From Marinobacterium stanieri (GTDB taxonomy: Bacteria; Pseudomonadota; Gammaproteobacteria; Pseudomonadales; Balneatricaceae): DNA of 64,000 bases. Made by a program: the position numbers and the translations under genes. This document shows positions 45,159 to 64,000 of this stretch, one piece after another (position 1 is the first letter of the stretch; each line of letters opens with the position of its first letter). The stretch is from NCBI RefSeq assembly GCF_900155945.1, contig NZ_FTMN01000012.1:1-64000 (forward strand), in the 5' to 3' direction. Under the pieces are notes generated by a model. That model was not told the DNA's origin, made no database searches, and saw only the letters and a program-made list of their open reading frames with translations.

Positions 45159-45213
45159 GATCGGATCCGAGACTTGTCAGGATTCCGTCAAAGGTACCGG
45201 AAGCGGGTGGTAT

Positions 45214-45227
45214 GTCAATAGATTGAC
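45214..45227. promoter_or_regulatory. FleQ-box candidate overlapping the fleQ -35
   Basis: GTCAATAGATTGAC is a perfect inverted repeat (GTCAAT-AG-ATTGAC) matching the FleQ consensus at 12 of 13 positions. On the minus strand it overlaps a perfect -35 TTGACA (45218-45213), with TACCTT (45196-45191) as a weak -10 after 16 bases. Binding there would be expected to repress, so autorepression is the simplest reading. Confidence 0.6.
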
Positions 45228-45356
45228 GCCGGATGGATTCCCGCTTCACGGCTTTAGGCCAAACAGCAGCTCTTTCAGGCTGAAATCTTATGCGGAAAGG
45301 AGGTATGTGTCTGGTGAAGACTGTTAGCAAGTACAACAGCAAATGCTTACGGGCAC

Positions 45357-45740
45357 TCAACAAATCCCCTTTACTTTTTTACAGCATGCTTCATCACACA
45401 CCCTGACAAAACGTCGGTCCTTACTTTCAAAGTTGCCTACTCCACCCGCACGTATGATCCATGAAAAAAACTCTCCATTTATCTTCATAGTCCCAGTAGA
45501 GTTGCAGGGGAAAATATTATAATCATCATGGACCTCTCGCTCATTACTCAACCGAGATTCCAGGACATAGTCCGCGACCTGTTCTTTCGTTAAATGAAAG
45601 GTCTTACACATCTCAATTACTTCAACACTTTCTTCTATGCTATTACCTTGTGTCAAAATATTAATATCAGTAATTAAAACATCCGAAAAACAATGGACTG
45701 AATAGAGTGAGGCAAATAATAAAAAGAAAAACTTCTTCAT
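45357..45740 (-). CDS. Exported small Cys-rich protein; candidate immunity to the amidase
   Basis: 127 residues with a clear signal peptide (MKKFFFLLFASLYSVHCFSD), AT-rich codons and several cysteines in the mature part (CK near 45, C79, then CDEACCKKVKGIC at the C terminus), suggesting disulfide bonding in the periplasm. Its ATG overlaps the amidase stop (ATGA). Position downstream of a cell-wall amidase that lacks a signal peptide and the periplasmic targeting fit a T6SS effector/immunity pair. I do not recognise the family. Confidence 0.65.
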   Translation of the reverse strand: MKKFFFLLFASLYSVHCFSDVLITDINILTQGNSIEESVEVIEMCKTFHLTKEQVADYVLESRLSNEREVHDDYNIFPCNSTGTMKINGEFFSWIIRAGGVGNFESKDRRFVRVCDEACCKKVKGIC

Positions 45741-46408
45741 TTATAGTTCTCCTTAAGCCAATCAAGAGCCGTAGAACCTTCATTTATTTTCTTTCTTGCA
45801 ACTGCGCCATGGGCATATACATCATCTGATAGAGAAAGCTTGTAATACTCAAGCAGTTTAGTAACAAGCCACAGAAAGCTAGAAGCTTGATCAGCCGTTA
45901 ACTCTTCGAATAGGCCTTTATCACTTGTACTACTCCCAAGATATAAACCGACTATCTCAATACCAATAGAGTCACTATTCATAGGGTATCGATCTGGATA
46001 GTCTTTTTTCCTTTCATGCTGCAATACTTCCTTGAACTTCTCGGACCAGCGACCGCTGCCATGCAGAATACCCTTTATAATTTTTCCATCTTCTTCTGTA
46101 CAAGAAGCCTCAAGTCTGCACCTTGAAACAACATACCCCATATGCCAGCATTTTTTATCAAGCCTTGCTGTTTGATAAATCTTACCATTTTTATCAATTA
46201 AAAAATGGGCCCCTGACTTTTTCGTTTTCCATGCATTCAAGGTAGATTGCGCCGTGCTGGCAGCTGTTCTATGAACAACGATAGAGTTAACTTTGGATAG
46301 AGCGCCATGCTCAATATTACTTATAATTTTCAGTTCTACCTTATCTGGATGATTCTTTACTTCACCATTGAGAACGGAAAAAACATTTTCATCTTCTTTT
46401 AGATTCAT
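45737..46408 (-). CDS. N-acetylmuramoyl-L-alanine amidase (Amidase_2 fold), T6SS effector candidate
   Basis: Peptidoglycan amidase-like protein of 223 residues without signal peptide. H46 (VVHRTAAS), the AHFLIDKNGKIYQ strand (68-79), E151 and H200 (YAHGAVARKK) match the zinc-binding amidase_2/PGRP pattern; H46 and H200 are probable zinc ligands and D217 a less certain third. Lack of export signal, AT-rich sequence, the T6SS island and an exported partner immediately downstream support delivery by T6SS rather than a housekeeping recycling role. It could alternatively be a phage-type endolysin remnant. Confidence 0.7.
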   Translation of the reverse strand: MNLKEDENVFSVLNGEVKNHPDKVELKIISNIEHGALSKVNSIVVHRTAASTAQSTLNAWKTKKSGAHFLIDKNGKIYQTARLDKKCWHMGYVVSRCRLEASCTEEDGKIIKGILHGSGRWSEKFKEVLQHERKKDYPDRYPMNSDSIGIEIVGLYLGSSTSDKGLFEELTADQASSFLWLVTKLLEYYKLSLSDDVYAHGAVARKKINEGSTALDWLKENYK

Positions 46409-46774
46409 ACTACCACTTCCATGTAGGTAAAATAATACTTATAAATTTATTAGCTTTATAAAAAGCTTTTCTGTATCACTATGCACAAAATAACAAACAA
46501 GTTGGATATAGTTTCACGTTAAAAGCTTTACACTCAATTAAACCAGATATACCCTTTAGCACATTCCCGTATCCAGAAAACAACATCACCTCCCAAACTG
46601 ACTGAAAGACAACCGTCCTCATAAAGATTTAGGACCTTAAATAAATTAGAAAAAATTCATAAATCATCCTTATTAATAACATAAAATGTAAATTTCATAA
46701 CGAACGGATACTATCCAATTACAGAAAAAATCCGACCTTGGGTTAATAGATTTTATTTATTTTAAAAAACCAAA
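46409..46774. other. AT-rich 366-base spacer between effector modules
   Basis: No open reading frame, RNA gene or promoter that I can defend. Strongly AT-rich (long A/T runs near 46680 and 46740). Such spacers often hold scars of displaced toxin tails or immunity genes in Rhs loci; nothing recognisable remains. Confidence 0.6.
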
Positions 46775-47236
46775 TCAGCCTATTTTCAAAACATCCCCCA
46801 ACGGCCTAAACAAAATAGCCTCTTTTCTTTGCTTACTCTCAGGAATAACTATCGAACAATCATCTTCTATAGCAAGAAAATCATCCCAATAGAGAATAAA
46901 GTCTTTCCATTTGACCTTGAATACAATTTTTCTCTTAGCAAAAAAATTAACAAAACCATCTTCTGGCCAATTAACCGAATCTCGAAGAATTTTTGAGACC
47001 GCATAGTTATCATCATCATTGTATGCCTCTAACCAATCCCCAATTCGAACTGAGTCACTTGATATAAGCCAGCAGTCATCGGGCAAGTCAAAGTATGATG
47101 ATGTACCAATATTAATTGCATGATCCCAAGCACTTTCGGCTATCTTTACATCAAGTAAAAAAACCTTGTTTTTCAATGTTTTTTTAAAATAATCAGCATA
47201 GCCAGTTTCTTGAACGCAAATTAATTCCTTAGACAT
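46775..47236 (-). CDS. Putative immunity protein to the Rhs toxin
   Basis: 153-residue cytoplasmic-looking acidic protein with no signal peptide (MSKELICVQETGYADYF...). Aromatic/acidic segments such as DLPDDCWLISSD and KWKDFILYWDDFLAIEDD are typical of single-domain immunity proteins. It starts 9 bases after the rhs stop, where the cognate immunity gene is always found. No family assigned by eye. Confidence 0.65.
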   Translation of the reverse strand: MSKELICVQETGYADYFKKTLKNKVFLLDVKIAESAWDHAINIGTSSYFDLPDDCWLISSDSVRIGDWLEAYNDDDNYAVSKILRDSVNWPEDGFVNFFAKRKIVFKVKWKDFILYWDDFLAIEDDCSIVIPESKQRKEAILFRPLGDVLKIG

Positions 47237-47245
47237 GGTAAGCTC

Positions 47246-47581
47246 TTAATTAGGTTTACTATAGTAAATATGGCCACCAGATCTACCATCTTTCCATTTC
47301 AAATGCTGTAAATCATTACCTGCATCAAGCTCTCTTGAGTTTTGGACATTGTGACTTTCATAACCTTTCTGATAGCCATTATTGGAATAGTTTCTATAGC
47401 GGTTCATATTACCTCTCGCCTCTATTAACAGCGCTTGAGCATCTGTAGCAGATTCAGTTCTCACATTTAGCTTCCCTTTACCTAATCCTCTTATTGCATC
47501 TACAGCCTCTTGCCACTGCTTGGTTCCAGCCTTAACTACGGGCAGGTCTGTTGCATTTTTAACCTTCCCACAACTACCCTG
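47246..47581 (-). other. Variable C-terminal toxin tail of the Rhs protein
   Basis: Codons after the DPLGL motif. GC content falls at this point while the core upstream is GC-rich, the usual mark of toxin-tip exchange. The tail is Lys/Arg-rich with conserved-looking segments DAQALLIEARGNM, GYQKGYESHN and GNDLQHLKWKDGRSGGHIYY; the His, Glu and Lys/Arg residues suggest a nuclease-like active site, but I cannot assign a family. Confidence 0.65.
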
Positions 47582-50500
47582 CAATCCCAACGGGTCAACC
47601 CAGTTAACCGGGTCAGACACATACTGGGATAGCTGCTCGCCACCTACTAAACCAACCGGGTCCTGACTGGTATATTGCCCGCTGCTAGGGTCATAGTAGC
47701 GGTATCGATTGTAGTGCAGGCCGACTTCACTGTCTTCGTACTGACCGAGGAAACGGATGGGGTTATCGATACTTGCGTTCACAACCTTGGCACGGCCAAA
47801 CCCTCGGTACTGAGCTTGCCAGACGACACGCCCTTCAGCGTCGGTCAATTCCTGAGGCGTTCCCAGATGGTCCAGATGGTAATAGTACACCTGGTCAGCT
47901 GAGTTACTGTTTACGCCCGTATTACGCAGCTGTAACAGCGGGCGGTAGCTGTTGGGCTCATGCAGATAAATAACACGTTCATGAGGCGCCGATGCCGCTA
48001 CTGATGTACGTTCACTTTTGTCAGCCAGAGCCTGCCGGTCTTCCTGTAAGAGTACATCACCGCTCCAGAGATAGTCGGTGCGCACATGGCTCTGCAGCCG
48101 ACCGCCTTCAGTCGTGTATTGCCAGCTCTCCTTTTGGCTTCGGCGGCCCAGTGGGTCATATTCATAGCGTATACGTGTACTGCGGTGGGGCGTTTGCTCA
48201 ATAACCTCTATCAGTTCGTTTTTGAGGTTGTATCGATATTGAGTGCTGATAGCACCGCCGCGCCCGCGCAGACGCTGGATGCGGTTGCCGCGGGCATCAT
48301 AGAGGTATCGAGCATCACCCGAGTGCGTTAACCGACCCTGCTGAACCAGGCCCTGGGGCGTTGTCACACCGGGAGACTGCTGTAGACTGCTGTCCTGCGC
48401 TTCTTCCTTTACGCCGATCAGCTGGCCAGCCGGGTCGAACAGGTACTCACCCTGTTGATGACCCGTTTGAGGATGCTGACTATCCCAGGCAACCAGTTGC
48501 TGGCGAACATCATAGTGGTATCGCTGGCGACCACGGGCCAGGTCATCCTGCTCAATCAATTGATCGGACTGGTTGTATCGATACTGCCGAGCCACCACCG
48601 GGGCCTGTGTTGTACGGCCAGCCCGTTGACGTACCAGACGATCCAGTGGGTCATAGTCGTTCAGCAGAGTGAGGTGGCCGCACTGGCGTTGTCGCTCACG
48701 CCCCCACACATCGTATTGGTGACGGCTCAGAATCTGGCCGTCCAGACTCAGCTCACGTAGTTGATGCTGTTCGTTGTGCTCGAAGGCGAGTGTGCGTCCA
48801 TCCGGCAATCGGGTGCTGTGCCTCAGCCCGGATGCGCTATAGGCGTGCTGAATGCAGGTATTGTCCTGCCATTCCTCCAGCAGATCCCCTGCCTTGTTAT
48901 ACCGGTAGGACAAACGTCGATTGCCGTTATCCGCTTCCAGCAAGCGACCGAGGGGGTCATACACAAAAGAGACGTGTTCGGCCGTTTGTTCCAGTGGAGT
49001 GCCATCGTTATCAACAAGCCGGTATAGCGCTTGAGTAACACGGTCCATCGGGTCGCGGGTCAACTCGACCAAGCGGTCTTGATCCTGCCATTCAACCAGC
49101 TGTCCCTTGTCATCATAACGATAACGTTGTTGCCGACCATCGAAACCAGTTTCACCGACTAGGCGTTCGTTCTCATCGTACTCCAGCCGATAAGTTTCAC
49201 CTCGTTCATTAACTAACGCAACAAGGTTGTGGTCGGTGTCGTACTGGTAATTGAAGTGGCTACCGTCCGGGTTGATGCGTCGGTACACCAGGTCGCCAAG
49301 ATATTGCCACTCCAGACGCGTGCCGTCGGCACGTTGGTGGCTCCTTAAATGGCCTTCCGCATTATAACTCCAGTGTTGTTCCTGACCGTCTGATCGCGAA
49401 CTGCTTATGCAGCGCCCCATGCCATCGTAATTGAATCGGGTTTCTACACCGTCACGGTAGTGGCACGACAACAAACCCAGATGATTGTACTCAAAGCGCT
49501 CTTGCCCTCCTTGAGGGTGGATAATGGAGGCTAACTGCTGCGCTGCATTCCACTGATACCGAACCCATTCTCCATGTGCATCCTGAATGGCCTGTACTAA
49601 ACCGGTTTCAGCATCTCTCAAGTAACGTGTATGCCGCCCCTCAGGATCAATGTATTGAACCAGATTACCTTTATCATCACGGCTGAAGAGATGGTCGGCT
49701 CCATCCGCTGTAGTGAGGGTATTGAATTGGTTATAGGGCTGGGGGATATGCTGGTGAATGGTTGCAACCAAGTAACGGTATTCGGTTTGAGCCTGATCCG
49801 GCGCAACGCTCAGGACAAGGCGCCCTAGCTCATCGTGACCATAGGTTGTTTCACCTGAGGGCGTGCGCAGGCTAACAAGCAGGCCATCGGCATCATAGCT
49901 GTAGGTATTTTTGTCACCGTTGGGTTGTATCTCTTTATGAACATACCCCAACTCGTTACCGATATAGGTCATCCAGGTACCGCGCCCGTCCAGGACATCA
50001 GTACGCCGTTCATCCGGGGTGTATGCCAGCTCACGGTAAAAATGGGGAACCTTGTTATCCCCCCCCCAGGTTTTGGTACACCGCGCTGTTAGAGGAGAGG
50101 ATGTTTGATCCCACTGAAACCAGTAACAAAACGCATCTCTGCGCTTTTCTTCCGTAATCAGATGGTTGGTGTAGGCAAAGAATTCAGTTGCTTTTTCTGC
50201 GTCCGTTATCGAGACGAGATCAGACAGGCCGTCTGGAGTTTGTTGGTAGCCATAAGACACCAGCGGATGATCCGCTTCTCCCCCCGCTCCGCGCAGAACG
50301 ACCGAGGTGATGTGCCTGCCGCACGAACTGCGCAGGATATCCAGACAACGCCCTGTGCCATCCTTCATGTGCAGTAATTGCCCGAATTCATTGCGTCTCA
50401 ACGCAATACGATTTCCTTGCAGATCGGTAATGGCATCCAGCATGAAATCAGGCGCTGAATGTTCCGACAGACGGCGTAAAAAATGATAGCTTCGCCCCTC

Positions 50501-51610
50501 GAAATCATCCATTCGATAGCCGTCTTGCACACGGTGCAGAACAAGCTGCTCGGCCCTGTTGAATGCAGGTTTGGATTCCCAAGGCTCAGGGAAGGCTACG
50601 ATGCGACCATCTTGCAGCCGCACACCAACCACTGCTTCCGGCGCACCTTTCAACTCAGAAAGAGCCATGTCATACGGGTGGTGCCAGCCACTGCCAAGCT
50701 CACCCTGGTGTGTTGAGGAGGATAACCATACTCGATGCCATTCAATCGGAATTGGACCTGGCAGAACAAAATCCGTGCGCTCGGTTAGCAAAGCGCCTGT
50801 TACAACATCAACCGGATGCCCGGAAAAGGTCCGGTTACCCAATTTTCCGCCGCTAAGCCCACCCAGCAGACTCCCCGCTAACTTACCGACTTCTCGCCCT
50901 GTTTCCCCAAAAATGCGGTAGCCGATTTCGCCTCCAACTTCTGACCCTGCGGCCGCTCCCACCTCTCCCAGTGCGACGGTACCGGCAAATCTGGTGAGCC
51001 CACACACCCCTTTGGCAATGAATGCAGCGCCACCAAAGCCAAGCAAAGCAACCGACCCTCCCACCGTCATCATCCAGTCAGCTGTAGATGACATCCATTG
51101 CGGGATTTCAGAATCAATTTCAAGATATGTTTCAGCTTCAGCACCGAAGAAAACATCCGGACTGCCTTCAGATATGACAGCTCCGCACTGTATTTTGTCG
51201 CCTTTGCGTGCGGCGGGATAACTCTCAATGAAAACTGTGCCACTACCCTGAGCAATATTCTTTATTTTATTGACATGCTTGCTGCATATGACTTTGTCAA
51301 TGACGGCACGGTTTGATTGGATACCATTTACAAACACCGTACTGGCGCCGGTAATGGTTTTGCCCGTCACATCGCCCTGAATGGTTGCGCCTATAGCCCC
51401 CCCCCTAGAAGCACCTGCGCCAGTTGTCGCCACCCCTGCACCGACGGCAGAAATAACCAATAAAGCTCCACCGCCAGTCGCAACGGTTGCAGCAACAACA
51501 GCAACCCCAACAGCTAAACCAGTAACTGCACCAACGATAAACCCGGAAAGGGCATTTGAATGTTTTATGGGGTCGCCGATCCGTGCGGCAGCCATTGCAG
51601 CAGAACTCAT
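47246..51610 (-). CDS. PAAR-Rhs polymorphic toxin (T6SS effector)
   Basis: 1454 residues. A prePAAR motif (A-A-R10-x-x-D13-x-x-x-H17), TM region 1 (about 22-62), a PAAR domain (about 75-155, with H112, C109 and C142 as likely metal ligands), TM region 2 (about 180-255), RHS N-terminal part starting GHPVDVVTGALL (265), many YD repeats, and a core end with two DPxGL motifs, the second at 1339-1343. After it lies a 111-residue variable tail (1344-1454; 47246-47581) that is more AT-rich and ends GGHIYYSKPN. The tail is of unknown family. The two TM regions predict the need for the EagR chaperone encoded just upstream. Confidence 0.9.
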   Translation of the reverse strand: MSSAAMAAARIGDPIKHSNALSGFIVGAVTGLAVGVAVVAATVATGGGALLVISAVGAGVATTGAGASRGGAIGATIQGDVTGKTITGASTVFVNGIQSNRAVIDKVICSKHVNKIKNIAQGSGTVFIESYPAARKGDKIQCGAVISEGSPDVFFGAEAETYLEIDSEIPQWMSSTADWMMTVGGSVALLGFGGAAFIAKGVCGLTRFAGTVALGEVGAAAGSEVGGEIGYRIFGETGREVGKLAGSLLGGLSGGKLGNRTFSGHPVDVVTGALLTERTDFVLPGPIPIEWHRVWLSSSTHQGELGSGWHHPYDMALSELKGAPEAVVGVRLQDGRIVAFPEPWESKPAFNRAEQLVLHRVQDGYRMDDFEGRSYHFLRRLSEHSAPDFMLDAITDLQGNRIALRRNEFGQLLHMKDGTGRCLDILRSSCGRHITSVVLRGAGGEADHPLVSYGYQQTPDGLSDLVSITDAEKATEFFAYTNHLITEEKRRDAFCYWFQWDQTSSPLTARCTKTWGGDNKVPHFYRELAYTPDERRTDVLDGRGTWMTYIGNELGYVHKEIQPNGDKNTYSYDADGLLVSLRTPSGETTYGHDELGRLVLSVAPDQAQTEYRYLVATIHQHIPQPYNQFNTLTTADGADHLFSRDDKGNLVQYIDPEGRHTRYLRDAETGLVQAIQDAHGEWVRYQWNAAQQLASIIHPQGGQERFEYNHLGLLSCHYRDGVETRFNYDGMGRCISSSRSDGQEQHWSYNAEGHLRSHQRADGTRLEWQYLGDLVYRRINPDGSHFNYQYDTDHNLVALVNERGETYRLEYDENERLVGETGFDGRQQRYRYDDKGQLVEWQDQDRLVELTRDPMDRVTQALYRLVDNDGTPLEQTAEHVSFVYDPLGRLLEADNGNRRLSYRYNKAGDLLEEWQDNTCIQHAYSASGLRHSTRLPDGRTLAFEHNEQHQLRELSLDGQILSRHQYDVWGRERQRQCGHLTLLNDYDPLDRLVRQRAGRTTQAPVVARQYRYNQSDQLIEQDDLARGRQRYHYDVRQQLVAWDSQHPQTGHQQGEYLFDPAGQLIGVKEEAQDSSLQQSPGVTTPQGLVQQGRLTHSGDARYLYDARGNRIQRLRGRGGAISTQYRYNLKNELIEVIEQTPHRSTRIRYEYDPLGRRSQKESWQYTTEGGRLQSHVRTDYLWSGDVLLQEDRQALADKSERTSVAASAPHERVIYLHEPNSYRPLLQLRNTGVNSNSADQVYYYHLDHLGTPQELTDAEGRVVWQAQYRGFGRAKVVNASIDNPIRFLGQYEDSEVGLHYNRYRYYDPSSGQYTSQDPVGLVGGEQLSQYVSDPVNWVDPLGLQGSCGKVKNATDLPVVKAGTKQWQEAVDAIRGLGKGKLNVRTESATDAQALLIEARGNMNRYRNYSNNGYQKGYESHNVQNSRELDAGNDLQHLKWKDGRSGGHIYYSKPN

Positions 51611-51642: not shown

Positions 51643-52080
51643 TTAATTAATCCAGGAAAAACTGTTTTCAATATTACTAAAAACAGGCAGATGCTTTTCA
51701 AAATCTTCCGCTGCAGCTGTAAAAACCATGCTTACGATTTGATCATTGTCTTGAAGTATGAAAAGCTGCTTTTGCTTCAGCCTTTGATTACTGGCTTTCC
51801 ATGTAAACAAAATTTCTTTTGCAGGCACATTTTTAAATGTAACTTCTTTTTGATATTCTATTTCAAGATCTTCTCCTTTATTCAGGAGCTCTTTCATTTG
51901 CATACTTACAAAAGAGGATAAATCTTTCCCTTCGGGCATTTCCTCTCGCATAACGACTATATTTGGCGCCACCTGGGAGTCTGCAGAAGGCGGCGCACTC
52001 CAAATTTGCATACTTTTATCGACCCATTCAACAGGTACGTCAATGCTGAAACTTCTGGTAAATATTCCCGTTTGCATCAT
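51643..52080 (-). CDS. EagR-type chaperone (DcrB/DUF1795 family)
   Basis: 145 residues with no signal peptide. DUF1795 pattern: SFSIDVPVEWVDKSMQIW, then NIVVMREEMPEGKDLSSFV and a terminal FSNIENSFSWI. Such proteins hold the TM segments of Rhs effectors that carry a prePAAR motif and help load them on VgrG. It lies between vgrG and rhs, the position of every known eagR gene. Confidence 0.85.
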   Translation of the reverse strand: MMQTGIFTRSFSIDVPVEWVDKSMQIWSAPPSADSQVAPNIVVMREEMPEGKDLSSFVSMQMKELLNKGEDLEIEYQKEVTFKNVPAKEILFTWKASNQRLKQKQLFILQDNDQIVSMVFTAAAEDFEKHLPVFSNIENSFSWIN

Positions 52081-52118: not shown

Positions 52119-54122
52119 CTAATTCAAATCGATTTTCTTAGAAGTTACTTGAACATGATCATCACCGGAAATATCAATATTGACGCCTTTAATCACTATA
52201 TTTCCGTTGCTTTCCATTTTAATTAGAGATTTCCCGCAACAGATCTCTATAGTTTCACCAACATTTATCTGCAATGTTTTTCCAACCGTCAGTTGATCAC
52301 TTTCACCAACAGCTGTCAGTCTCGACACCCCGATTAAATTTTCCTGAGCAGCACCAACAGAATTGGTTTCGTTAATGCCAACGCTGTGCACTCGGACCGT
52401 CCCAACAGTTTTGATTTCTGTAAGATTAGTGGTATGAACCCGGTGACTTTTGACTGTTACTGTTTCGTTGTTATCCACAGTCTCCGTGCGATCATGTTTA
52501 ACGTGCACGGTTTCATCGTTGTCGATGGTTTTGGTACGGTCGCGGCCAACCCAATGGGTTTCGTCGTTCTCGACTTCAATGTCCTGGTTTTTCTCGGCAT
52601 GGATAAAGAGTTGTTCTTCACCTTTCTTGTCTTCAAACCGTATCCAGTTGGCATTGGCAGCGCTGCCGCCCTTACTGGAACGGGTTAGAATGCCGCTCTG
52701 TGTCTTATTGGCCGGCAGGCTCCAGGGTGGCATCTGGTCGGCGTTGTATACGCGGCCGGTAATCAATGGTCGGTCAGGATCGCCGTCCATGAAATCGACG
52801 ATCACTTCCTGTCCTATACGCGGCAGAAAAATACCGCCCCAGTTTTTACCGGCCCAGTTGTGGCTTACACGGACCCAGCAGGAGCTGTTTTCGTTGTACT
52901 TGCCATAACGGTCCCAGGGGAACTGGATTTTGACGCGGCCATATTCGTCGGTGTAGATCTCTTCACCCGGTGGGCCTACCACCATGGCATTTTGCGGCCC
53001 CTGCATTTGCGGCCAGCCTGTCAGCAATGGCGGTCGGTACACCGTGCTGGCGGGAATACAATGGAAGCTGTTGCTGTAGGACTTTTCATCTTCATCATTG
53101 ATGGTGTGCGAGTAATCCTGCGCATCGTGCTCGACACCCAGCAAGACATACTCGGCCATCTCTTCAGGCGCGTCGTCATGGCGCTTCAGGGTAAAGCGGT
53201 GGCCACTGGTGAAGGTGCGACAGCCGCTGTGACCATAAACAACATCATGCGCCGCTTCGTCGGCCTCCACTCGCAGGCGGGTAAGGGTGTCACCCAATCC
53301 TTTTTCTTCATACCGGCCGGGGTATTCAAAGTGCTCGTACTTGGTTGTTCCCGGCACTTTCATGCTGGCGGTTTCACCCGTTTGCAGTCGATCACGCGGC
53401 TTTTTGAAGTCATAGTCCCGACGTGCCTGCTTGCCGGTACGGTATAGATAGTTGTGGTGCCAGGCATGGATACTGTGAGCACTTATAGTACCGGCGCGGT
53501 ACTCGACCGCCGCTTCGCCACACTGACCGTAGCCACCCACATGATCGCTCAGCACCAGCACATGCTGACCGGCCTGATGTTCGAAGTAGTAGAAAATACC
53601 TTCCTCTTCAAACAGGCGGGACAGAAACTGGAAGTCTGTTTCTTTATACTGGACACAATATTCACGGACAGGATGTGATCCCACCAGACGAAACTGAAAG
53701 TCGGTAAAACCGTTTTCGCTGAAAATGCTGGAGGCGATTTCCTTGACGGTCTTGAACTGGAACACCTTGCAATCACTGGTCTGCGTCAGAAACCAGAACC
53801 AGGGGACGATGACTGCGGTGTACGCACGCAAGTCCTGCAGATGCCGCCCTTCCTGACGGAAGCTTTTGACGTAACCGTTGATATAGCGATAACTACCCGG
53901 CGTCATAAAACCCAGGTCATCAGCCCGCGTGATACGCACTGTGACGTTTTTGCCCACGATTTCGGCTGGGGCGATGCTCTTACGCAGAGAATAGGCCTCA
54001 ACTTCAAACTCGAACAGGCTTGAAACGGCCTCTTCCCCTTTCAGCCGAGTCATCAACAGCGTATCGGCCCCCAGCGGGGTGTCTATCGCCAGCAGGCGGT
54101 TTTGTTGCGAAAAATTAGCCAT
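52119..54122 (-). CDS. vgrG: T6SS spike protein VgrG (TssI)
   Basis: 667 residues. gp27-like base from the start (MANFSQQNRLLAIDTPLG), a gp5 OB domain with GRVKIQFPWD and SCWVRVSHNWAGKNWGGIFL, and a C-terminal beta-helix of repeated V-x-x-N-E-T strands (about 540-667). No enzymatic extension follows, so it carries cargo through the PAAR protein. The ATG at 54122 starts the conserved sequence; a TTG at 54146 would overlap the upstream gene. Confidence 0.94.
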   Translation of the reverse strand: MANFSQQNRLLAIDTPLGADTLLMTRLKGEEAVSSLFEFEVEAYSLRKSIAPAEIVGKNVTVRITRADDLGFMTPGSYRYINGYVKSFRQEGRHLQDLRAYTAVIVPWFWFLTQTSDCKVFQFKTVKEIASSIFSENGFTDFQFRLVGSHPVREYCVQYKETDFQFLSRLFEEEGIFYYFEHQAGQHVLVLSDHVGGYGQCGEAAVEYRAGTISAHSIHAWHHNYLYRTGKQARRDYDFKKPRDRLQTGETASMKVPGTTKYEHFEYPGRYEEKGLGDTLTRLRVEADEAAHDVVYGHSGCRTFTSGHRFTLKRHDDAPEEMAEYVLLGVEHDAQDYSHTINDEDEKSYSNSFHCIPASTVYRPPLLTGWPQMQGPQNAMVVGPPGEEIYTDEYGRVKIQFPWDRYGKYNENSSCWVRVSHNWAGKNWGGIFLPRIGQEVIVDFMDGDPDRPLITGRVYNADQMPPWSLPANKTQSGILTRSSKGGSAANANWIRFEDKKGEEQLFIHAEKNQDIEVENDETHWVGRDRTKTIDNDETVHVKHDRTETVDNNETVTVKSHRVHTTNLTEIKTVGTVRVHSVGINETNSVGAAQENLIGVSRLTAVGESDQLTVGKTLQINVGETIEICCGKSLIKMESNGNIVIKGVNIDISGDDHVQVTSKKIDLN

Positions 54123-54142
54123 AGACTTCCATGTTCCTTGGT

Positions 54143-54589
54143 TCAAGAGGCGCCGATACAGCGCAATGTCTCGGGTACAGCTTGCCAGGCCTGTGTCTCT
54201 TCATCGAGCTTCAGGTTGAATTCAAAACCGTATTGCCAGGGCGATTCCGGGTCGGATACCTCAAACTGGACACGCACTTGAATCGGTGCCGGATGCTCCT
54301 GCAGCCAGGTTTGCTCAGTGCGAATGCGGCCCGATTCTTCCTCTGCAATTACGCCCAGGTAGTGGCTGAACACGTCGGCCACCGTTGCATCATCCATGCT
54401 TCCCGCATATCGGCAGGATTCAATTGCACGTGTATCCACGGCCTGAAGTGTCAATAAATGCTTGAACAGCTTTCCTGCTGACTGCTCAACACCATCAGCC
54501 CATGTATGCATGGGTGTTAACAGCACGCACGCCGACACGAGCCAGGCCGGTATGTTAAGTCGTAACAAATTTTCCATAAAAGACTGCAT
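54143..54589 (-). CDS. Exported protein; candidate periplasmic immunity to the NlpC/P60-like protein
   Basis: 148 residues from ATG 54589 with a signal peptide (LRLNIPAWLVSACVLLTPMHTWADG). The mature part has two cysteines (CRYAGSM and the final CIGAS) and a beta-rich C terminus (IQVRVQFEVSDPESPWQYG). The longer frame from 54712 was rejected because its first 41 residues lie over the upstream gene and look non-coding. It overlaps the end of the upstream candidate peptidase by 35 bases, suggesting coupled synthesis of toxin and antidote. No family recognised. Confidence 0.65.
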   Translation of the reverse strand: MQSFMENLLRLNIPAWLVSACVLLTPMHTWADGVEQSAGKLFKHLLTLQAVDTRAIESCRYAGSMDDATVADVFSHYLGVIAEEESGRIRTEQTWLQEHPAPIQVRVQFEVSDPESPWQYGFEFNLKLDEETQAWQAVPETLRCIGAS

Positions 54590-55022
54590 ATCCTGTACCT
54601 GAATAATGTCTGGAGAATTGATCCGGCGTCTGTTTAACCACTTTGTCCCGGGAATTGGAGTAGTGATATATGTGCCCATCGCAGAATATTCCGATATGTT
54701 TCCGCGGCACATTACTCATTACTCTTCGTTTCAGGTCCACATTGGTTTTTTTAGTAATAAACGCCAGGCATTTTTTCAGTGCGGCAGGCTTATCAGCCCA
54801 GAGCCCTACCTCAGGGCAGCGTGCAAATACTTCCTGAACGCGAATAGTAGACCCTTCACCCGCAGAATCGGTTTGATTGCCACATTGATAGCCAAATTCA
54901 TAACCAAGTTCATGAGAAACGTAGTGCGCACAATGATTAAGATTGTCTGCTGTCATACCCTGTTCACAATGATCAGAAATATGCGTATCCAATGAATCTT
55001 CCAGTGTTTCTTTTGTAATCAT
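54555..55022 (-). CDS. NlpC/P60-like cysteine peptidase candidate, probable T6SS effector
   Basis: 155 residues without signal peptide. C31 in NHCAHYVSHELG and H109 in RKHIGIFCDGHIYHYSN sit in the order and contexts of the catalytic Cys and His of NlpC/P60 and CHAP enzymes (compare DCSGFV and HVGIY patterns). The family looks familiar as a short conserved protein beside vgrG in several proteobacteria, but its activity is not something I can state. Just upstream of a signal-peptide protein and vgrG, hence an effector/immunity pair is the favoured reading. Confidence 0.65.
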   Translation of the reverse strand: MITKETLEDSLDTHISDHCEQGMTADNLNHCAHYVSHELGYEFGYQCGNQTDSAGEGSTIRVQEVFARCPEVGLWADKPAALKKCLAFITKKTNVDLKRRVMSNVPRKHIGIFCDGHIYHYSNSRDKVVKQTPDQFSRHYSGTGYAVFYGKFVTT

Positions 55023-55912: not shown

Positions 55913-56389
55913 TTACAGACGGATACCGGTAGCGATATCGTAACCAGCAGGCACACTGCCTTCCGGCTGGTGCTCTTCGTTCCAGCTGGTGTACTTCATC
56001 TCTATCTTCGTGAAGTTCAGAGAAATTGCTTCAACCGGACGGTCACCATTGCTCATCATGTTATAACCGCTGATCAGGGTATTGGTCAGGGTGTATTCCA
56101 TGTACGTTTCGATACCATTAGGCGTGGTCTGAACCAGGTGAATCTGGGCTGTTTTACCCTGACCAACACAGGACTCCGCGAAAAACAGCGGGGAGGTTTT
56201 GTCCATTTTGGTTGTCAGTGTCACTTCGCCCACAACAGCAGTCGACGATTCACGGTCTTTGCCCTGGCCCGGCTTGGTTGTCAGACTACGGTTGACGCTC
56301 CACTCCATGGAGTCACATTCAACCCAGTTTTCATGTCCGGCAGCTGTAACGTCACCGTCAATACCGTCAATTTTCAGATAGATTGCCAT
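55913..56389 (-). CDS. hcp: T6SS inner-tube protein Hcp (TssD)
   Basis: 158 residues. Typical Hcp start MAIYLKIDGIDGDV, then WVECDSMEWSVNR and a beta-barrel ending KIEMKYTSWNEEH. Stacks as hexameric rings in the tube and binds small effectors. Monocistronic, with its own terminator. A short palindrome in the leader is listed separately. Confidence 0.95.
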   Translation of the reverse strand: MAIYLKIDGIDGDVTAAGHENWVECDSMEWSVNRSLTTKPGQGKDRESSTAVVGEVTLTTKMDKTSPLFFAESCVGQGKTAQIHLVQTTPNGIETYMEYTLTNTLISGYNMMSNGDRPVEAISLNFTKIEMKYTSWNEEHQPEGSVPAGYDIATGIRL

Positions 56390-56814: not shown

Positions 56815-57471
56815 TTATTTTTCAGTGAACAATTCGTTAACCAAAGCGCCTTCCTCTCCACAGTCAATTCCTTTGGTGCAGAGCCCACTATTAAACAAAT
56901 ATTTGTCAAACCAATGAATTTCCGGACGCTTGAATGTATGGTCTTTATTCTGAGACATATTCAAGTGACTAATAAAATAGCCTCCACTTTCCGACAAAAA
57001 CATTCGCCCTCGTTCAAACCGATACTGAGCTGAATCTGACTTCAGCTGGCAACTGGTCCACCAGTTAATGCGAATGCCTCCGTTGCGCTTTCGGATCTTG
57101 CCTGAGTCCAGCGTGTACTCAGTACAATTTTTCTGTAACTCGGTATCGAGCACCAGATTCAAGAATTCACGCGGTTTGCTCGGGGCCAGCGCTGCCAGTG
57201 CCTCTGGATAGTAGTCCGCCAAGTAGGTTTGCAGATGGAGGATACGTTCACCTGGGTCTGCTACATCCTCAGGTGCAAAGGTAACACTGCCCCCTTGCAA
57301 GGATGGGATAACACTATGCTCAACCAGAACATAGTGCTGAGGTACGGCAAAACGGAAACTTTCCTGGCTCGGAGCAGCAGGCTCTTCAGCCCAGGCAGGC
57401 AACTGAACGCTGCTCAGAACCATCAGACAGGTGCTGGTCATGGCACAGCGTGTAAAGACATTACTGCTCAT
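56815..57471 (-). CDS. Exported T6SS-linked protein of unknown function
   Basis: 218 residues with signal peptide (TCLMVLSSVQLPAWAEE). Mature domain has four to five Cys (NCTEYTL, TSCQLK, LCTKGIDCG) and conserved-looking segments GGIRINWWTSCQ and GGYFISHLNMSQN. The start overlaps the clpV stop by 11 bases, which ties it to the structural T6SS operon rather than to cargo. No family recognised; a periplasmic accessory factor is one possibility. Confidence 0.65.
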   Translation of the reverse strand: MSSNVFTRCAMTSTCLMVLSSVQLPAWAEEPAAPSQESFRFAVPQHYVLVEHSVIPSLQGGSVTFAPEDVADPGERILHLQTYLADYYPEALAALAPSKPREFLNLVLDTELQKNCTEYTLDSGKIRKRNGGIRINWWTSCQLKSDSAQYRFERGRMFLSESGGYFISHLNMSQNKDHTFKRPEIHWFDKYLFNSGLCTKGIDCGEEGALVNELFTEK

Positions 57472-60106
57472 CCTGAACTCCTCTAATCAGGGTATATGTG
57501 AATTGGCTATTCTCATCCACATCGACTTCTACTGCAGTCAGCTCCACTTGCTCTCCCATACTCTCCAGAATACGCAGGGAAATTTCGGGAAGCAGACTGC
57601 GGTTAATAATGTGAATTGCATTTCGGGCCCCGGTGTCGACTTCCTGGCAGCGCGCGGCAATCGTCGTGACAACCATATCCGAGAAGGTGAACTGAGCCTG
57701 ATACTGTTCACTCAGACGCTCCCCTACACGTGCCAGTTGCAACCGGATAATGCCGGCCATGACGTCATCATGAAGCGGAAGGAAAGGAATCAAGCGACTA
57801 CGTCCCAGAAATGCGGGGCGGAAATGGGTCAGAAGTTCATCCTTGACCAGTGTTTCCAGTTTTTCAGCAGCCGGCTTGGTATCCGGGTCTGCGCACACAC
57901 GTGAAATAGTCTCGGTTCCCGCATTGGTCGTCATGATGATAAGAGTATTGCGGAAATCGATATCCCGCCCTTCACCATCTTTCATGGAGCCTTTGTCGAA
58001 TACCTGATAGAAAATGTCTTGTACGCCGGGGTGCGCTTTTTCCATTTCATCCAGCAGAATCACACTGTAAGGCTTGCGGCGAACGGCCTCCGTCAATACG
58101 CCACCTTCACCGTAGCCGACATATCCCGGAGGAGATCCCATCAGAAGTGAAACCTTGTGTTCTTCCTTGAACTCGGACATGTTGATGACCGTGAGGTTTT
58201 GCTCTCCTCCATACAACAACTCGGCCAATGCCAGCGCGGTTTCGGTTTTACCTACCCCGCTGCTGCCACAGAACATGAAGACACCAATCGGCTGTCTTGG
58301 ATCACGCAGTTTTGCGCTGGAAATACGAACACTTTGACTCACAGCTTCGAGTGCATGATCTTGCCCGATGATGCGCTCCTTCAGTGCGTCCTGCACACCC
58401 AGCACTTTCTGTATTTCACTGGACACCATGCGACCGGCCGGAATACCGGTCCAGCCGGCAATAACTTCAGCCACAACCTGGCTATCCACGTGGGGGCGCA
58501 CCAGAGGCTGCTCGCCTTGAACCTGTGCCAACTGCCCGCGCAGATCATCCAGCTTGCCGCGCATGACTTCATCCTGGCTTTCAGCCTGCTCACTAAGGGT
58601 CAGGCGCAGCTCAAGAATCTGTTCAACCAGTTGTTTTTCCTGCTGACACCGCGCCTCCAATGCGTGCTGCTGTTCCTGCAAGGCAGCAATTCGCTCCACA
58701 AAGTTATCAATATCCTGATCATCTCCCCCGTAAGCCCTGTGCTCACGACGCGCACTATCCAGTTCTTTCTGATACTGGTCCAGACGGGCTTTAATATCTT
58801 CAAGGGCGGCAGGTGCGTTGCGCTGTTCCAGGTTCACTCGGGAGCAAGCTGTGTCCAGGACAGATACGCATACATCCGGTAGCTGCCGACCGGATATGTA
58901 TCGTTTTGATAGCAGCACTGCATCACGCACTGCCTCATCCAGTACCATCACTTGATGGTGCTCTTCAAATGCCGGCTGCAATGTTCTCAGCATGCGCATT
59001 GCCTGTTCCGGCTCTGGTTCATCGACCCTGATGACCTGAAAGCGCCGGGTCAGCGCTGCATCTTTTTCGAAGTATTTTTTGTACTCCGCCCAGGTTGTCG
59101 CTGCGATAGTGCGAAGCTCACCCCGTGCCAGTGCTGGCTTGAGAATATTGGCTGCGTCACCCTGCCCTCCGGAATTACCGGCCCCAATCAGTGTATGGGC
59201 TTCATCGATAAACAAAATGATGGGGCGACTCGACTGCTTGACCTCTTCAATCACGCTTTTGAGTCTGTTCTCAAACTCCCCGCGAACACCTGCGCCCGCT
59301 TGCAGAAGCGTCAAATCAAGAATATGAATCTCGACGTCTTTCAAGCTATCCGGAACCTCCGCATCGACAATGCGAGACGCCAGACCTTCGACAACCGCCG
59401 TTTTGCCCACCCCGGCTTCGCCGGTCAAGATCGGGTTATTCTGGCGACGACGGCAAAGAATATCGATCATCTGCCGAATCTCAGGCTCCCGCCCGACGAC
59501 AGGGTCAAGCTTTCCTTCGCGCGCCTGGGCCGTCAGGCACTGTGTATATGCACTCAGAGCTGAAGGGCGACCGGTAGAGGCTGGAGCCGCTTCGGTCGCA
59601 GCCTGCTCGGTTGCTTGAGTTCCCGGTTCGCCGGCCGATTCCTGCTCCAATCGAATTAAACGCGCGCCATTACGGACAAAGGCATCACTGTCTATCATTG
59701 CAAGGCTCGGCAGATGACTAAACAGCGGCAGACTAAACGCTTCTTCCTTGAAGACAGCAACGAGTAAGGCGATGCCTGTCACTTCGCCTTCACCGTATTC
59801 CAGACTGGAAAGAAGCCACGCCTTACGAATCATTTCTATTACATTCGGCGAAAATGCCGGGGCACTGCTGTGGCCACGGTCAAATACCTCAAAGCATGCC
59901 ACCAGTTCATTTTCCAGGCGTTCGGTATCAACACCATGACGGTTCAATGCCCTCCGTACGCCTGTTGCTTCATGCTGAGTCAGCGCCAGCAACAGATGTT
60001 CAGGCTCAATAGCGTAATGACGTTGGCTGACCGCCAGCGCGGCTGCCTTTTCAAAAGCGACGCGGCTGGTATCCGAGAGTTTGCCTATCAGGGCACGCAT
60101 ATTCAT
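57461..60106 (-). CDS. clpV: T6SS sheath-disassembly ATPase ClpV (TssH)
   Basis: AAA+ unfoldase of 881 residues that recycles the contracted TssBC sheath. N-terminal Clp-N repeats (about 1-150), AAA1 with GEAGVGKT and [13 protein letters not shown], a short middle coiled coil (about 430-540) and AAA2 with GSSGVGKTE and the [12 protein letters not shown] Walker B. The spacer near 160-185 is Thr/Ala/Glu-rich. ATGA overlap with the kinase gene upstream. Confidence 0.95.
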
Positions 60107-61752
60107 GTAACATCCTCTGTTTTCTTGATAACAACTGTCCTGTCTTCGGTTTCTTGAATATCCGATTCGGGCAGTGCCTCTTTTTCAATATCGGGATCGG
60201 ACTCCCGGATGAAGGATTCCATCTGTTCGGCCAATTCATTGAACTGACGTCTGGCATGACCAATCTCGTCAATGCGCGTCACATCCAGCCGGGTATAGTA
60301 GTTGCCGACGTACAGGCTTTGCAGAGCTCGCGCCAACTGTTTGAATTGCCCGGCAAAAAAACGGCACAGGTAATACACCACAACCGTGATCAATACACAG
60401 GCCAAAATCACAAAGGCTCCGAGTGACCATGCGGTGCTATCCCACACATCATCGATCGAACCTGCAGACAGCCCCATAACAACAGCACCGATCTGCTTTT
60501 CATTGAATATGATGGGAGAAGTCATATGGTAGAGACGTTCCCCGTCCATCTGACGTTCGAAAATGCTGACGTTCTGGCTTTCTTCGAGTTTTTCCAGTTC
60601 AAGCGGTGGACGATACAATTCGCCAACACGCTCGCTATGACTTGCGGCTACGATTTGATGCTGATGATCGGTAATAATCAAATACGCAATCTCAGTGTTC
60701 GTAGACATGCGCTCTACCGTAATGCCCAGATTGAGCTCGTCACCAAGCAACAGGGCTTCATCAACCTGCTCTCGGGTTTGTTGCACCAGCATGCGTCCAT
60801 AACTACTGAGCACGCCTGACAAGTTGCCGGAAAGGTCATTAAGAGTCAGCACCAGCACACCCATCAACAACACACTGAGCGTGGTGGCAACAATAGCGGT
60901 ATAGCGCCAGCTGGCATTGATTTTTTCGCTCCAGCTCGGGTCCTGCGCCGACAATTCGATTTCCAGCGCATCCAGCTGCTTGATCAGCTCAGCAGCGCTT
61001 GGATAACGAAAGGAGGTTTTTTTATGCAGGAGACGCTGTATGACCTTTTTGATGGCATGTGGACAGCGTGAGGTGGACAGGTCAACATCCGACTGCTGAA
61101 TCAACGCCATCAGGTCTCGAATACTGGAGGCTTCAAACGGCAACTGTCCAAAGACCATCTGGTAGAACACCACGCCTAACGAGTACAGATCACTGCGACG
61201 GTCGGGCGAGTGTCCAGCCAGTTGTTCTGGCGACATGTAAAACGGTGTACCCACGATGGCTTCTCCACAGCCGACTTCGGTGTGTTCATGCAGATATGCC
61301 ACGCCAAAATCTGTCAGCCGTACCCGGCCACTGGGCTCTATCAGGATGTTACTGGGCTTGATATCGCGGTGAATAATGCCCTTTTCATGTGCATATTCCA
61401 GCGCCGAAGCTATCTGTGAAACGATATCAATCGTTGTATCCAGCTCGAGCTCCGACTGCTCCCGAATCCAGTCGTCCAGGCTCTGGCATTCGACATACTC
61501 CATAACGATAAACGGCATGTTGTCGACCTCACCCACATCGAAAATGTGGACGATATTCTGGTGATTCAATTTGCCGGATACTTGTACCTCATTGAGAAAG
61601 AACCTCAGGCGTTCTTTATCTTCAGCAAACTCCGGCCGCAATACTTTGATCGCCAGTGTGCGCTGCAAAACCGGATCATAAGCCTTGTACACCTGCGACA
61701 TTGCGCCTTCGCCAATAATCCCTTGCAGCTTGTAACGTCCAAGTTGGTCCAT
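60103..61752 (-). CDS. Membrane Ser/Thr kinase with extracytoplasmic sensor (PpkA/Stk-like)
   Basis: 549 residues. N-terminal Hanks kinase (about 7-265): glycine loop GEGAMSQVYKAY, the ATP Lys in LAIKVLR, the HRD motif GIIHRDIKPSN, DFG in LTDFGVAY and the APE-like YMSPEQLAG. Then TM1 (about 288-308), a periplasmic sensor (310-435; cache-like, ending IIFNEKQIGAVVMGL), TM2 (about 445-467) and a HAMP-type helical segment (468-520). T6SS Hanks kinases such as PpkA and Stk1 activate secretion by threonine phosphorylation of an FHA protein; a HAMP after the sensor is unusual for them. Confidence 0.87.
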   Translation of the reverse strand: MDQLGRYKLQGIIGEGAMSQVYKAYDPVLQRTLAIKVLRPEFAEDKERLRFFLNEVQVSGKLNHQNIVHIFDVGEVDNMPFIVMEYVECQSLDDWIREQSELELDTTIDIVSQIASALEYAHEKGIIHRDIKPSNILIEPSGRVRLTDFGVAYLHEHTEVGCGEAIVGTPFYMSPEQLAGHSPDRRSDLYSLGVVFYQMVFGQLPFEASSIRDLMALIQQSDVDLSTSRCPHAIKKVIQRLLHKKTSFRYPSAAELIKQLDALEIELSAQDPSWSEKINASWRYTAIVATTLSVLLMGVLVLTLNDLSGNLSGVLSSYGRMLVQQTREQVDEALLLGDELNLGITVERMSTNTEIAYLIITDHQHQIVAASHSERVGELYRPPLELEKLEESQNVSIFERQMDGERLYHMTSPIIFNEKQIGAVVMGLSAGSIDDVWDSTAWSLGAFVILACVLITVVVYYLCRFFAGQFKQLARALQSLYVGNYYTRLDVTRIDEIGHARRQFNELAEQMESFIRESDPDIEKEALPESDIQETEDRTVVIKKTEDVT

Positions 61753-61764
61753 AGTATTGCCCCG

Positions 61765-62793
61765 TTAACGACTCACTTCGTGCACTGTGTCTTCCAAATC
61801 CACCAACGATGGCCCTGTCGCCAGCCAAAGTCCCTCACCCAAACCAAACGCCTTAGATGTATCCGTCGCCCCAGACATGACTAAATCGGGTCTCTCACGA
61901 CCTTTAAGCACCACTTGAAGGTCTATGTAGTAATCCTGCCCCAAATACAGCTGAACCAATTCCTGTAGCTGCACAAAGCGGGGCTTGCCCGGTTGCAATG
62001 CTGCAAACAGACTCAAGTTGACCGGCTCAGTACGAATACGAATACTGCAGGCACCTTCGTACACTGCGCTGCCAATGACAAAATCACGCCCCAGGGTGCT
62101 GTTGCACTGCCCGGTGATGTGTACCTGATCATCATCAAGGTCAAACCAGCGAGCGTGAAATTGCTGAATGCTGACAGCACATCCAAGTGCATTGGCGATA
62201 ATCCGCTTTAGTCCCAAAGCATGTCGTGGCCGCTTACTGAAGAAGCCTGAGAAATAGAGTGCCTTGGCTTCACTCTCGGTACTCACCGCGCTTACACCCG
62301 ATTCATTTCTCAGGCCTGAATAACCCAGAAGCACACGGTGCCCAGTACCTTTTTCGTGCCCTTGCCCCGGTTGCAACTGCTGCTCTTCCCCCAAAGGAAG
62401 GCGATTCTTGCGCCAGGCCCGATACATAAAACTGATCGCGCGTGAATTAAAGCCATCCAGCAAACGAATAAAGGCAGCATCTTTAAGCCGATGACGCTCT
62501 TTCAACAGTTCGGTGTAGTGGACCGGGAGCACACCGGCCGGACCGGTAAGCCCGAAACAGGCCACATGTAAAAGGTTCTTGGTGTACCCCTGCGACTGCA
62601 AGGGTTCCAACCTGACACAGGCCGCATGAGGGAAATCCAGGCTTTGTAAGACCCTGAATTCTGCGAACTCACTGTGCAGTGGATAGTCACGCCCTATGGG
62701 TGCAGCATTCCGGCCAACCCTCAGAGCATCGACTTCCAGCCGCCGGAGCAGTTGAAAGAAATGCGTATTCGGCAGTCGTGCTTTCGCAGTCAT
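61765..62793 (-). CDS. tssG: T6SS baseplate protein TssG
   Basis: 342 residues. TssG pattern: FFQLLRRLE, then FGLTGPAGVLPVHYTELL and the FHARWFDLDDDQ/LG segments near 215. Forms the TssEFGK baseplate wedge. ATGA overlap with tssF, 12 bases before the kinase gene. Confidence 0.93.
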   Translation of the reverse strand: MTAKARLPNTHFFQLLRRLEVDALRVGRNAAPIGRDYPLHSEFAEFRVLQSLDFPHAACVRLEPLQSQGYTKNLLHVACFGLTGPAGVLPVHYTELLKERHRLKDAAFIRLLDGFNSRAISFMYRAWRKNRLPLGEEQQLQPGQGHEKGTGHRVLLGYSGLRNESGVSAVSTESEAKALYFSGFFSKRPRHALGLKRIIANALGCAVSIQQFHARWFDLDDDQVHITGQCNSTLGRDFVIGSAVYEGACSIRIRTEPVNLSLFAALQPGKPRFVQLQELVQLYLGQDYYIDLQVVLKGRERPDLVMSGATDTSKAFGLGEGLWLATGPSLVDLEDTVHEVSR

Positions 62794-64000
62794 ATCAGCG
62801 CCTGCTCTCCTGCCCGGGCGGGCCAGACCTTGAGCGGTGTTTCCTCACCATCCAGTTCGACACTAAGCTGGATGAACGCATTTACATGGGTGTACAACCC
62901 CAGGAAACGCTCCAGGACAGAGGCAAACAGGAAAGGGCTATTCCCGGAAAAACGGGTAGAATCAATGCCAAGACTGACGCGACTGCCGCGACAGAAAAAG
63001 GGTATCCCGCGCTCATCAACCATGCGCATGGTAGACGGAGCGACACGACTGACTCTAACTGCATCAGCTGCATTGGCATTTTCCCGACTGCGACTGCTGT
63101 TGTAGAGGCTCAGCATTTTGCGCAACACCAAAGTACCAGCTTCATCTGCGGAGAGAGACACGTAGTTCAGATTGAGATGTGAAAGCAGGTTCCAATAAGT
63201 GTCGTCACCCAACTGGGGGCGGACCACATCACTGAACGAGGTTTCCATCAAAATTTTACCAACAGCTGAAGAACCGCTGCTGAGTACTAAAGGTGGCTGG
63301 CTCCACGTCTGGCTCAACCGCTTGGGCAGGTTTCCGTTGAAGCATTTCAAGCGTGTGAGTACGACCGCTTCCTCCTGCTGCGCCATGAGTTCGTCGCTAT
63401 TGATTAACGACAGGAATACCTGGCTACGCGTATTGCCGGTATCCCTCTCTTCGCGACGCGAGTGCCAACTGGCACAAGATTGTTGACTTACATCCCAGCC
63501 ATGGATGCCGAAAAAAGGCCGTACCGTTTCGATTTGACTTTGGTCAGCACTCACCGAAACACTATCAATGCTGTACACCTCCACGCTGTCCGGGTGGCGT
63601 GCATCCGCAATTACCGGATACTCATATTCCTGGTGTGTCAGGCGGGTTGGCTCTGCAAACTGTTCATACAGGTTAAGCAGGGGCGTCGCATTCAGTACAA
63701 AGTTACCGGCATCAACAGTTGCTTCAATATCCGGGAGGCTTTTGTTGAAATAGAGAAATACATCAAATGCCTGGCCGTTCAACTTGGCTTGAGCCGCGTC
63801 ATCAAGTTCAATATCAAAAAACAGAAACTTATCCGTGTAATTGAAGTACTCCGTCAACAGCCGGTACCCCAGAAACGACTGCTCCGGATAGTCAAAAATG
63901 CCCTCGTGCTCGCTGAATCCCACTTGTTGAATGGCATTGCTCGCATCCATGAACACGGCATTGGCATCGTATTGATTATCTGCAACCCCAACCGTCAGTG
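62790..64000 (-). CDS. tssF: T6SS baseplate protein TssF, C-terminal part (runs off right edge)
   Basis: The open frame continues past the right edge without a stop (LTVGVADNQYDANAV at the edge), so about 400 residues of an expected 590 or so are visible. Features include FDYPEQSFLGYRLLTEYFN near the left end of the visible part, RPFFGIHGWDV, and the C-terminal GSRVSLGID and FASVLERFLGLY segments of TssF. A GTG at 63956 is internal, not the start. ATGA overlap with tssG. Confidence 0.93.
   Translation of the reverse strand, partial: LTVGVADNQYDANAVFMDASNAIQQVGFSEHEGIFDYPEQSFLGYRLLTEYFNYTDKFLFFDIELDDAAQAKLNGQAFDVFLYFNKSLPDIEATVDAGNFVLNATPLLNLYEQFAEPTRLTHQEYEYPVIADARHPDSVEVYSIDSVSVSADQSQIETVRPFFGIHGWDVSQQSCASWHSRREERDTGNTRSQVFLSLINSDELMAQQEEAVVLTRLKCFNGNLPKRLSQTWSQPPLVLSSGSSAVGKILMETSFSDVVRPQLGDDTYWNLLSHLNLNYVSLSADEAGTLVLRKMLSLYNSSRSRENANAADAVRVSRVAPSTMRMVDERGIPFFCRGSRVSLGIDSTRFSGNSPFLFASVLERFLGLYTHVNAFIQLSVELDGEETPLKVWPARAGEQALI

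Follow-up and report, generated by a model that had tools for sequence, protein, structure and literature searches.

A DUF2947 protein as the predicted immunity partner of an unassigned Rhs toxin tail in a type VI secretion cluster of Marinobacterium stanieri

Results

The stretch of DNA analyzed here (hereafter, the window) comprises the first 64,000 nucleotides of contig NZ_FTMN01000012.1 from the Marinobacterium stanieri assembly GCF_900155945.1, and encodes on its minus strand an Rhs effector of 1454 aa (47246..51610) followed by a small gene for a protein of the family DUF2947 (PF11163). The Rhs protein comprises prePAAR_I, PAAR, DUF6531, RHS repeats, an RHS core, and a toxin tail. The matches to prePAAR (PF25799, E 4e-12) and PAAR (PF05488, E 2e-13) fall in its N-terminal part, and hydrophobic N-terminal segments, defined as 19-mers with a mean hydropathy above 1.6, are found at residues 25, 49, and 187. 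Toward the other end lie two DPxGL motifs on the minus strand, DPVGL (47648..47662, residues 1317-1321) and the second aspartyl autocleavage motif, DPLGL (47582..47596, residues 1339-1343). They are 17 residues apart, which is also the spacing of the cleavage motifs of Photorhabdus laumondii Rhs1 in the available text of two reports (PMC8636562; PMC8765631), and by the motif logic in that of the former (PMC8636562), the protein is predicted to be cut directly after DPLGL. The 111 residues and stop codon beyond this point (47246..47581, minus strand; residues 1344-1454), ending in ...GNDLQHLKWKDGRSGGHIYYSKPN, form the predicted C-terminal toxin domain, referred to here as the tail. The guanine plus cytosine (GC) content of these last 336 nt is 0.405 compared to 0.539 in the rest of the gene, where the lowest value among 308 segments of 336 nt is 0.461, and GC at third codon positions is 0.312 compared to 0.532. 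The tail carries a net charge of +6 and three histidines. A preliminary description of the locus had noted a 111-residue tail after DPLGL with a sharp drop in GC and a basic, histidine-containing end, and had pointed to a gene for a 153-residue protein 9 bases further on; all of these features are borne out.

This second gene (46775..47236, minus strand; 153 codons, GC 0.348) begins 9 bases past the Rhs stop codon. The acidic, 153-aa product matches PF11163 at 45.1 bits (cut-off 25) and is the predicted cognate immunity protein. Its start is neither hydrophobic nor signal-peptide-like, and we infer from the lack of a hydrophobic start that the target of the toxin is most likely cytosolic. A scan of positions 45200-47700 found two promoter-like sites (7.4 in shuffled sequence) and four terminator-like sites (1.5 in shuffled sequence), none of either kind between the Rhs and DUF2947 genes. 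DUF2947 is a named family without a stated function. No immunity role was found for it in the open literature under the names DUF2947 and PF11163; in the accessible text, the name appears in a list of deleted genes, with no toxin link there. A structural model of the protein (low confidence, predicted local distance difference test [pLDDT] 61.7) matched the CdiI immunity protein of the Escherichia coli A0 34/86 contact-dependent growth inhibition complex (PDB 5T86 chain I) below the trust level of the tool, at only rank 23 with an E value of 2.1 in Foldseek, and there is no sequence match to CdiI.

Relatives of the tail were sought in 84,980 species genomes by a scan that needs exact short peptide matches, so that distant relatives can be missed. 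The peptide pattern was fitted by 51 stretches, two of which (L004 and L005) encode tail relatives. The first is a contig of a Rubritalea metagenome-assembled genome (MAG; Verrucomicrobiota), where a tail 60% identical to that of the window ends a 473-aa carrier (L004:4897-6315) whose start is hydrophobic and whose body, rich in Lys, Arg, and Pro, is very basic; neither an RHS domain nor any other delivery domain was recognized in this carrier. Ten bases past the Rubritalea tail gene lies a gene for a 152-aa DUF2947 protein, which scores 68.1 bits (cut-off 25) and is 39-41% identical to that of the window, so that both homologues score above the family cut-off. The second relative, in a Cellvibrionaceae MAG, is a tail of 57% identity on a 1381-aa Rhs protein, and the next gene does not encode a DUF2947 protein and is possibly divided between two reading frames. 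Its two apparent frames (L005:6319-6790) lie around ten consecutive A residues, and near 6761 the first part of the Rhs gene starts a second time, as though Rhs had been duplicated. A profile search of 144 Cellvibrionaceae genomes added a more distant tail (L049, E 3.5e-5) on a fragment resembling Rhs at the edge of a contig, with only a sub-threshold YD-shell match. This tail is 30-35% identical to the others, and of 2,000 shuffles per comparison, none reached its alignment score in any of the three comparisons made. The next gene encodes a 124-aa protein with a weak resemblance to the neighbor in L005 (E 3e-4, single comparison) and none to the two DUF2947 proteins (E 3.7 and 4.0). The known set thus consists of four tails, two with a DUF2947 partner and two with another partner. 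The four tails have net charges of +4 to +10 and the four partner proteins of -6 to -11, the value for L005 being that of one open piece.

At codon positions 1, 2, and 3, the tail gene of the window is identical to that of L004 in 0.69, 0.82, and 0.42 of cases, and to that of L005 in 0.63, 0.73, and 0.41. In both the tail and DUF2947 genes, conservation is higher at the first two codon positions than at the third, as purifying selection would predict. Rhs tails often decay, which would allow the tail of the window to be a decayed or non-toxic remnant. However, its reading frame is open, the codon positions show the pattern of purifying selection, and polar residues are invariant among the tails, so there is only a very slight chance that this is the case.

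The proposal that the tail and its neighbor are a toxin and its immunity protein, made in the preliminary description, is well supported by this comparison, as the pair recurs in the same order, with gaps of 9 and 10 bp, in two phyla whose carriers are unrelated. Of 369 genomes of the class, only two contain DUF2947, including that of the window itself, and because the family is so uncommon, chance is an unlikely explanation for its position next to the tail at the two loci; this argument is an informal one and takes the frequency of the family from genomes of the class. Under a different explanation, DUF2947 would be a bystander with the true immunity gene elsewhere, which would fit with the other partner genes of L005 and L049 and with a DUF2947 gene that has no recognized toxin gene beside it (L006:1459-1920). 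That an uncommon family should have kept this position in two phyla, at 9 and 10 bp, makes the bystander explanation highly improbable. We consider it very probable, from the sequence comparisons, that the tail and the DUF2947 protein are toxin and immunity, in which case the gene in L006 may be an orphan immunity gene.

Searches closer to the window found the tail to be rare. Rhs core matches at E 1e-20 or better occur in 14 of 116 genomes of the family (that of the window included), at 28 places. A comparison of the tail with the C-terminal regions at the remaining 27 places, using cut points from a simple motif search and with one region (L033) running off its locus, gave a best E value of 0.72 and no relative. 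Two further Rhs core matches in the same genome (G000, contig C20, 40556-42735) have different tails (L038 and L044). The tail itself was found in one of the 116 family genomes and one of the 369 class genomes, in each case that of the window. Among 398 genomes of the phylum, profile A1 identified no other genome with the tail below E 0.01. At E 0.1 or less, it matched nine of the 398, the genome of the window and eight others at E 0.0105-0.0718 that were treated as chance; the three of these eight that were inspected (L014, L018, and L019) were unrelated genes. A match in G1034 (E 9.7e-4, search of 240 genomes) was dropped because it contains four internal stops in a gene region that by eye resembles an AMP ligase, and a second match in G485 (E 0.5) was dropped as well. 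With profile A5, G1124 was the only one of 21 genomes of its genus to be matched. Neither the tail (P0003) nor the distant tail (P0012) had a relative in plasmids and phages, and P0008 had none in plasmids; the same holds for the DUF2947 protein (P0002) in plasmids and phages and for P0009 in plasmids. Five scans of viral contigs found 2, 28, 94, 14, and 5 pattern-matching stretches with no relatives among them, a further scan produced no match, and E. coli genomes searched by DNA contained no relative. These comparisons give good support to the view that the tail represents the variable portion of a type VI secretion system (T6SS) Rhs effector.

The preliminary description could place neither protein in a known family and proposed a profile search of both. 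This search, once run, upholds that statement for the tail, which has no significant family match, and corrects it for the downstream protein, which belongs to DUF2947. The tail had no significant profile match in Pfam, NCBIfam, PADLOC, or PHROGs; at E values up to 10, it matched a single NCBIfam family (E 0.086), taken as chance, and its relatives had non-significant matches at E 0.063-0.34. In a sequence search of the PDB, nothing better than E 0.23 was found for the proteins searched, and the best PDB match of the tail, EspG, at this value, was taken as chance. Ntox47 was considered for its conserved D, RT, PH, H pattern (available text of PMC3482391), and hmmscan did not report it at E 10 for any of the four tails; no Ntox47 members that could serve for a profile comparison were found in 114 genomes or in 14 control genomes. 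Short peptide strings searched in the open literature matched only a physics paper, and these searches may have overlooked a description of the family that uses a different name. The suggestion of a possibly new toxin class is sustained to the extent that the tail has no family in the libraries searched; the delivery system and its logic are already known. We regard the predicted toxin family as new and of a known kind, and a wider protein database could still link the tail to a described family.

An alignment of the four tails (A3, window numbering) contains 20 invariant residues: K21, A26, G34, G36, A48, L52, R56, N58, Y65, G73, E75, H77, N81, L91, H93, K95, D98, G103, H104, and I105. E75, H77, H93, K95, D98, and H104 remain invariant in A5, which is cut to the core, and mark a predicted active-site stretch (47270..47359, minus strand) with a presumptive catalytic role. 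An AlphaFold2 model of the tail built from three sequences (pLDDT 75.9, predicted template modeling score 0.76) has the order α-β-α-β-β-β, with helices at 21-32 and 45-56 and strands at 38-42, 73-77, 91-98, and 101-108. The last two strands are joined by a two-residue turn, and if they are paired as a hairpin, H93, K95, and H104 would lie on one face.

The tail is probably some kind of nuclease, given its sequence features. Conserved histidines in the absence of a metal motif match a pattern of RNase A-like, metal-independent ribonuclease (RNase) toxins, which have two such histidines in the available text of Zhang et al. 2012 (PMC3482391), and for this reason, an RNase is favored, a narrower assignment that we make tentatively and that may well be correct. 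Alternatively, the same pair could include a metal-dependent DNase or RNase, in which the three invariant histidines together with D98 and E75 could hold a metal, and the basic tail and acidic partner would fit any nuclease. However, the tails have no Pfam nuclease match, and neither A3 nor A5, each of four sequences, contains an invariant HNH-type motif (HH, [DE]H...N...H), the three histidines being isolated, or an invariant PD-(D/E)xK motif, which makes a metal-dependent enzyme unlikely.

Two results weigh against the metal-independent RNase assignment: fold searches of the tail returned no significant match, and the weak matches were to vicinal oxygen chelate (VOC)/glyoxalase proteins, teneurin, Rel synthetase, and pol-beta nucleotidyltransferase. 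It is also conceivable, if slightly less likely than a metal-dependent nuclease, that the tail is a RelA/SpoT-like or other nucleotidyltransferase, an ADP-ribosyltransferase, or an NAD glycohydrolase. Rel/SpoT chains are among the PDB fold matches listed for the tail, seven of the 50 BFVD matches listed (of 416) are nucleotidyltransferase, pol-beta-like, poly(A) polymerase, RelA/SpoT, or polymerase X proteins, and RelA/SpoT-like and ADP-ribosyl toxins are described in polymorphic systems in the available text of PMC3482391. RelA/SpoT-type nucleotidyltransferases are characterized by catalytic acidic residues and an RxK motif; in the tails, the resemblance to them is limited to these weak fold matches, and judged by eye, there is no invariant Asp at the expected strand.

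With the histidine-dependent RNase toxins of the BECR fold (EndoU, Ntox19, Ntox50, and Ntox47), the tail shares a small alpha+beta architecture in which helices precede a C-terminal sheet, as well as conserved histidines. It differs from them in having no profile match or significant fold match and an extra strand between its two helices. Its last strand contains the invariant H104 and no invariant Ser/Thr; strand 4 of BECR proteins has Ser/Thr, or His in some clades. The BECR fold consists of N-terminal helices followed by a four-stranded meander. No BECR entries were recognized among the matches listed (50 each) in two PDB fold searches, none of which were significant.

The remaining genes of the system lie upstream of the Rhs gene on the same strand, in the order TssF, TssG, kinase, ClpV-type ATPase, Hcp, VgrG, and DcrB/EagR-type chaperone. 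TssF is represented by its C-terminal part (62790..63956; profile positions 228-608 of 608), and the gene probably runs off the end of the window. TssG (61765..62793), the serine/threonine protein kinase of the T6SS cluster (60103..61752), and Hcp (55913..56389) were identified by domain matches. The AAA+ ATPase (57461..60106) has AAA/Clp domains and is named ClpV-type from its position. VgrG (52119..54146), the spike, has VgrG domains, and the chaperone (51643..52080; DcrB, PF08786, E 1e-15) is named EagR-type from its domain and position. This gene arrangement, together with the domain content and hydrophobic N-terminal segments of the Rhs protein, is that of class I prePAAR Rhs effectors, and the Rhs protein is almost certainly a T6SS Rhs effector.

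Two other gene groups were observed in the window. Downstream of the predicted immunity gene (45357-46408, minus strand), a gene for a 223-aa Amidase_2 protein (PF01510, E 5.1e-19) overlaps one whose 127-aa product begins with a signal-peptide-like segment. Both have a GC content of about 37-38%, and they resemble another T6SS effector/immunity pair, with peptidoglycan as the target. Between VgrG and Hcp (54143-55022, minus strand), a gene for a 155-aa protein with the Cys/His motifs CAHYVSHELGY and HIGIFCDGHIYHYS is overlapped by a 189-aa open reading frame with an internal hydrophobic stretch. Neither has a significant match in Pfam or NCBIfam, and they are possibly another cell-wall effector/immunity pair.

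Discussion

Taken as a whole, the locus is probably best explained as an antibacterial T6SS effector/immunity pair in which the tail is most likely a metal-independent RNase blocked by the DUF2947 protein. The course of events that we infer, from secretion and cleavage through toxicity and RNase activity to binding, would begin with the EagR-type chaperone holding the prePAAR/transmembrane part of the Rhs protein, which would be carried by VgrG. The 111-aa tail would be enclosed by the Rhs shell and freed by aspartyl autoproteolysis after DPLGL. In the cytosol of an unprotected neighbor, the basic tail would most likely cut RNA without a metal, by means of the histidines H77, H93, and H104 together with E75 and K95. 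Kept in the cytosol, the acidic DUF2947 protein would bind and block the tail.

In its organization, the system resembles the class I prePAAR Rhs effectors RhsA of Pseudomonas protegens and Rhs1/Tre23 of P. laumondii, in which, according to the available parts of the published accounts, VgrG, Eag-type, Rhs, and immunity genes likewise occur together and prePAAR/PAAR, an Rhs shell, a pair of DPxGL motifs at the 17-residue spacing, and a cytosolic target (predicted here) are common features. The toxin domain of the window is unrelated in sequence to those of RhsA and Rhs1/Tre23 as far as family searches show, and Tre23 is described in that literature as an ADP-ribosyltransferase.

A broader proposal, which is possible but doubtful, is that the tail founds a new toxin superfamily. 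Such a superfamily would be distinct in fold and would have three histidines in its active site. Its members would be carried by Rhs proteins of the T6SS in Proteobacteria and by a secreted, non-Rhs protein in Verrucomicrobia, and would be countered by two or more immunity families that show no detectable similarity to each other, including DUF2947, with stand-alone DUF2947 copies elsewhere as orphan immunity genes. If these readings are correct, a domain of unknown function would gain a function, with DUF2947 as an antidote, and an undescribed polymorphic-toxin family would be defined with named candidate active-site residues. They would also imply that one cassette is present in two phyla on unrelated carrier proteins.
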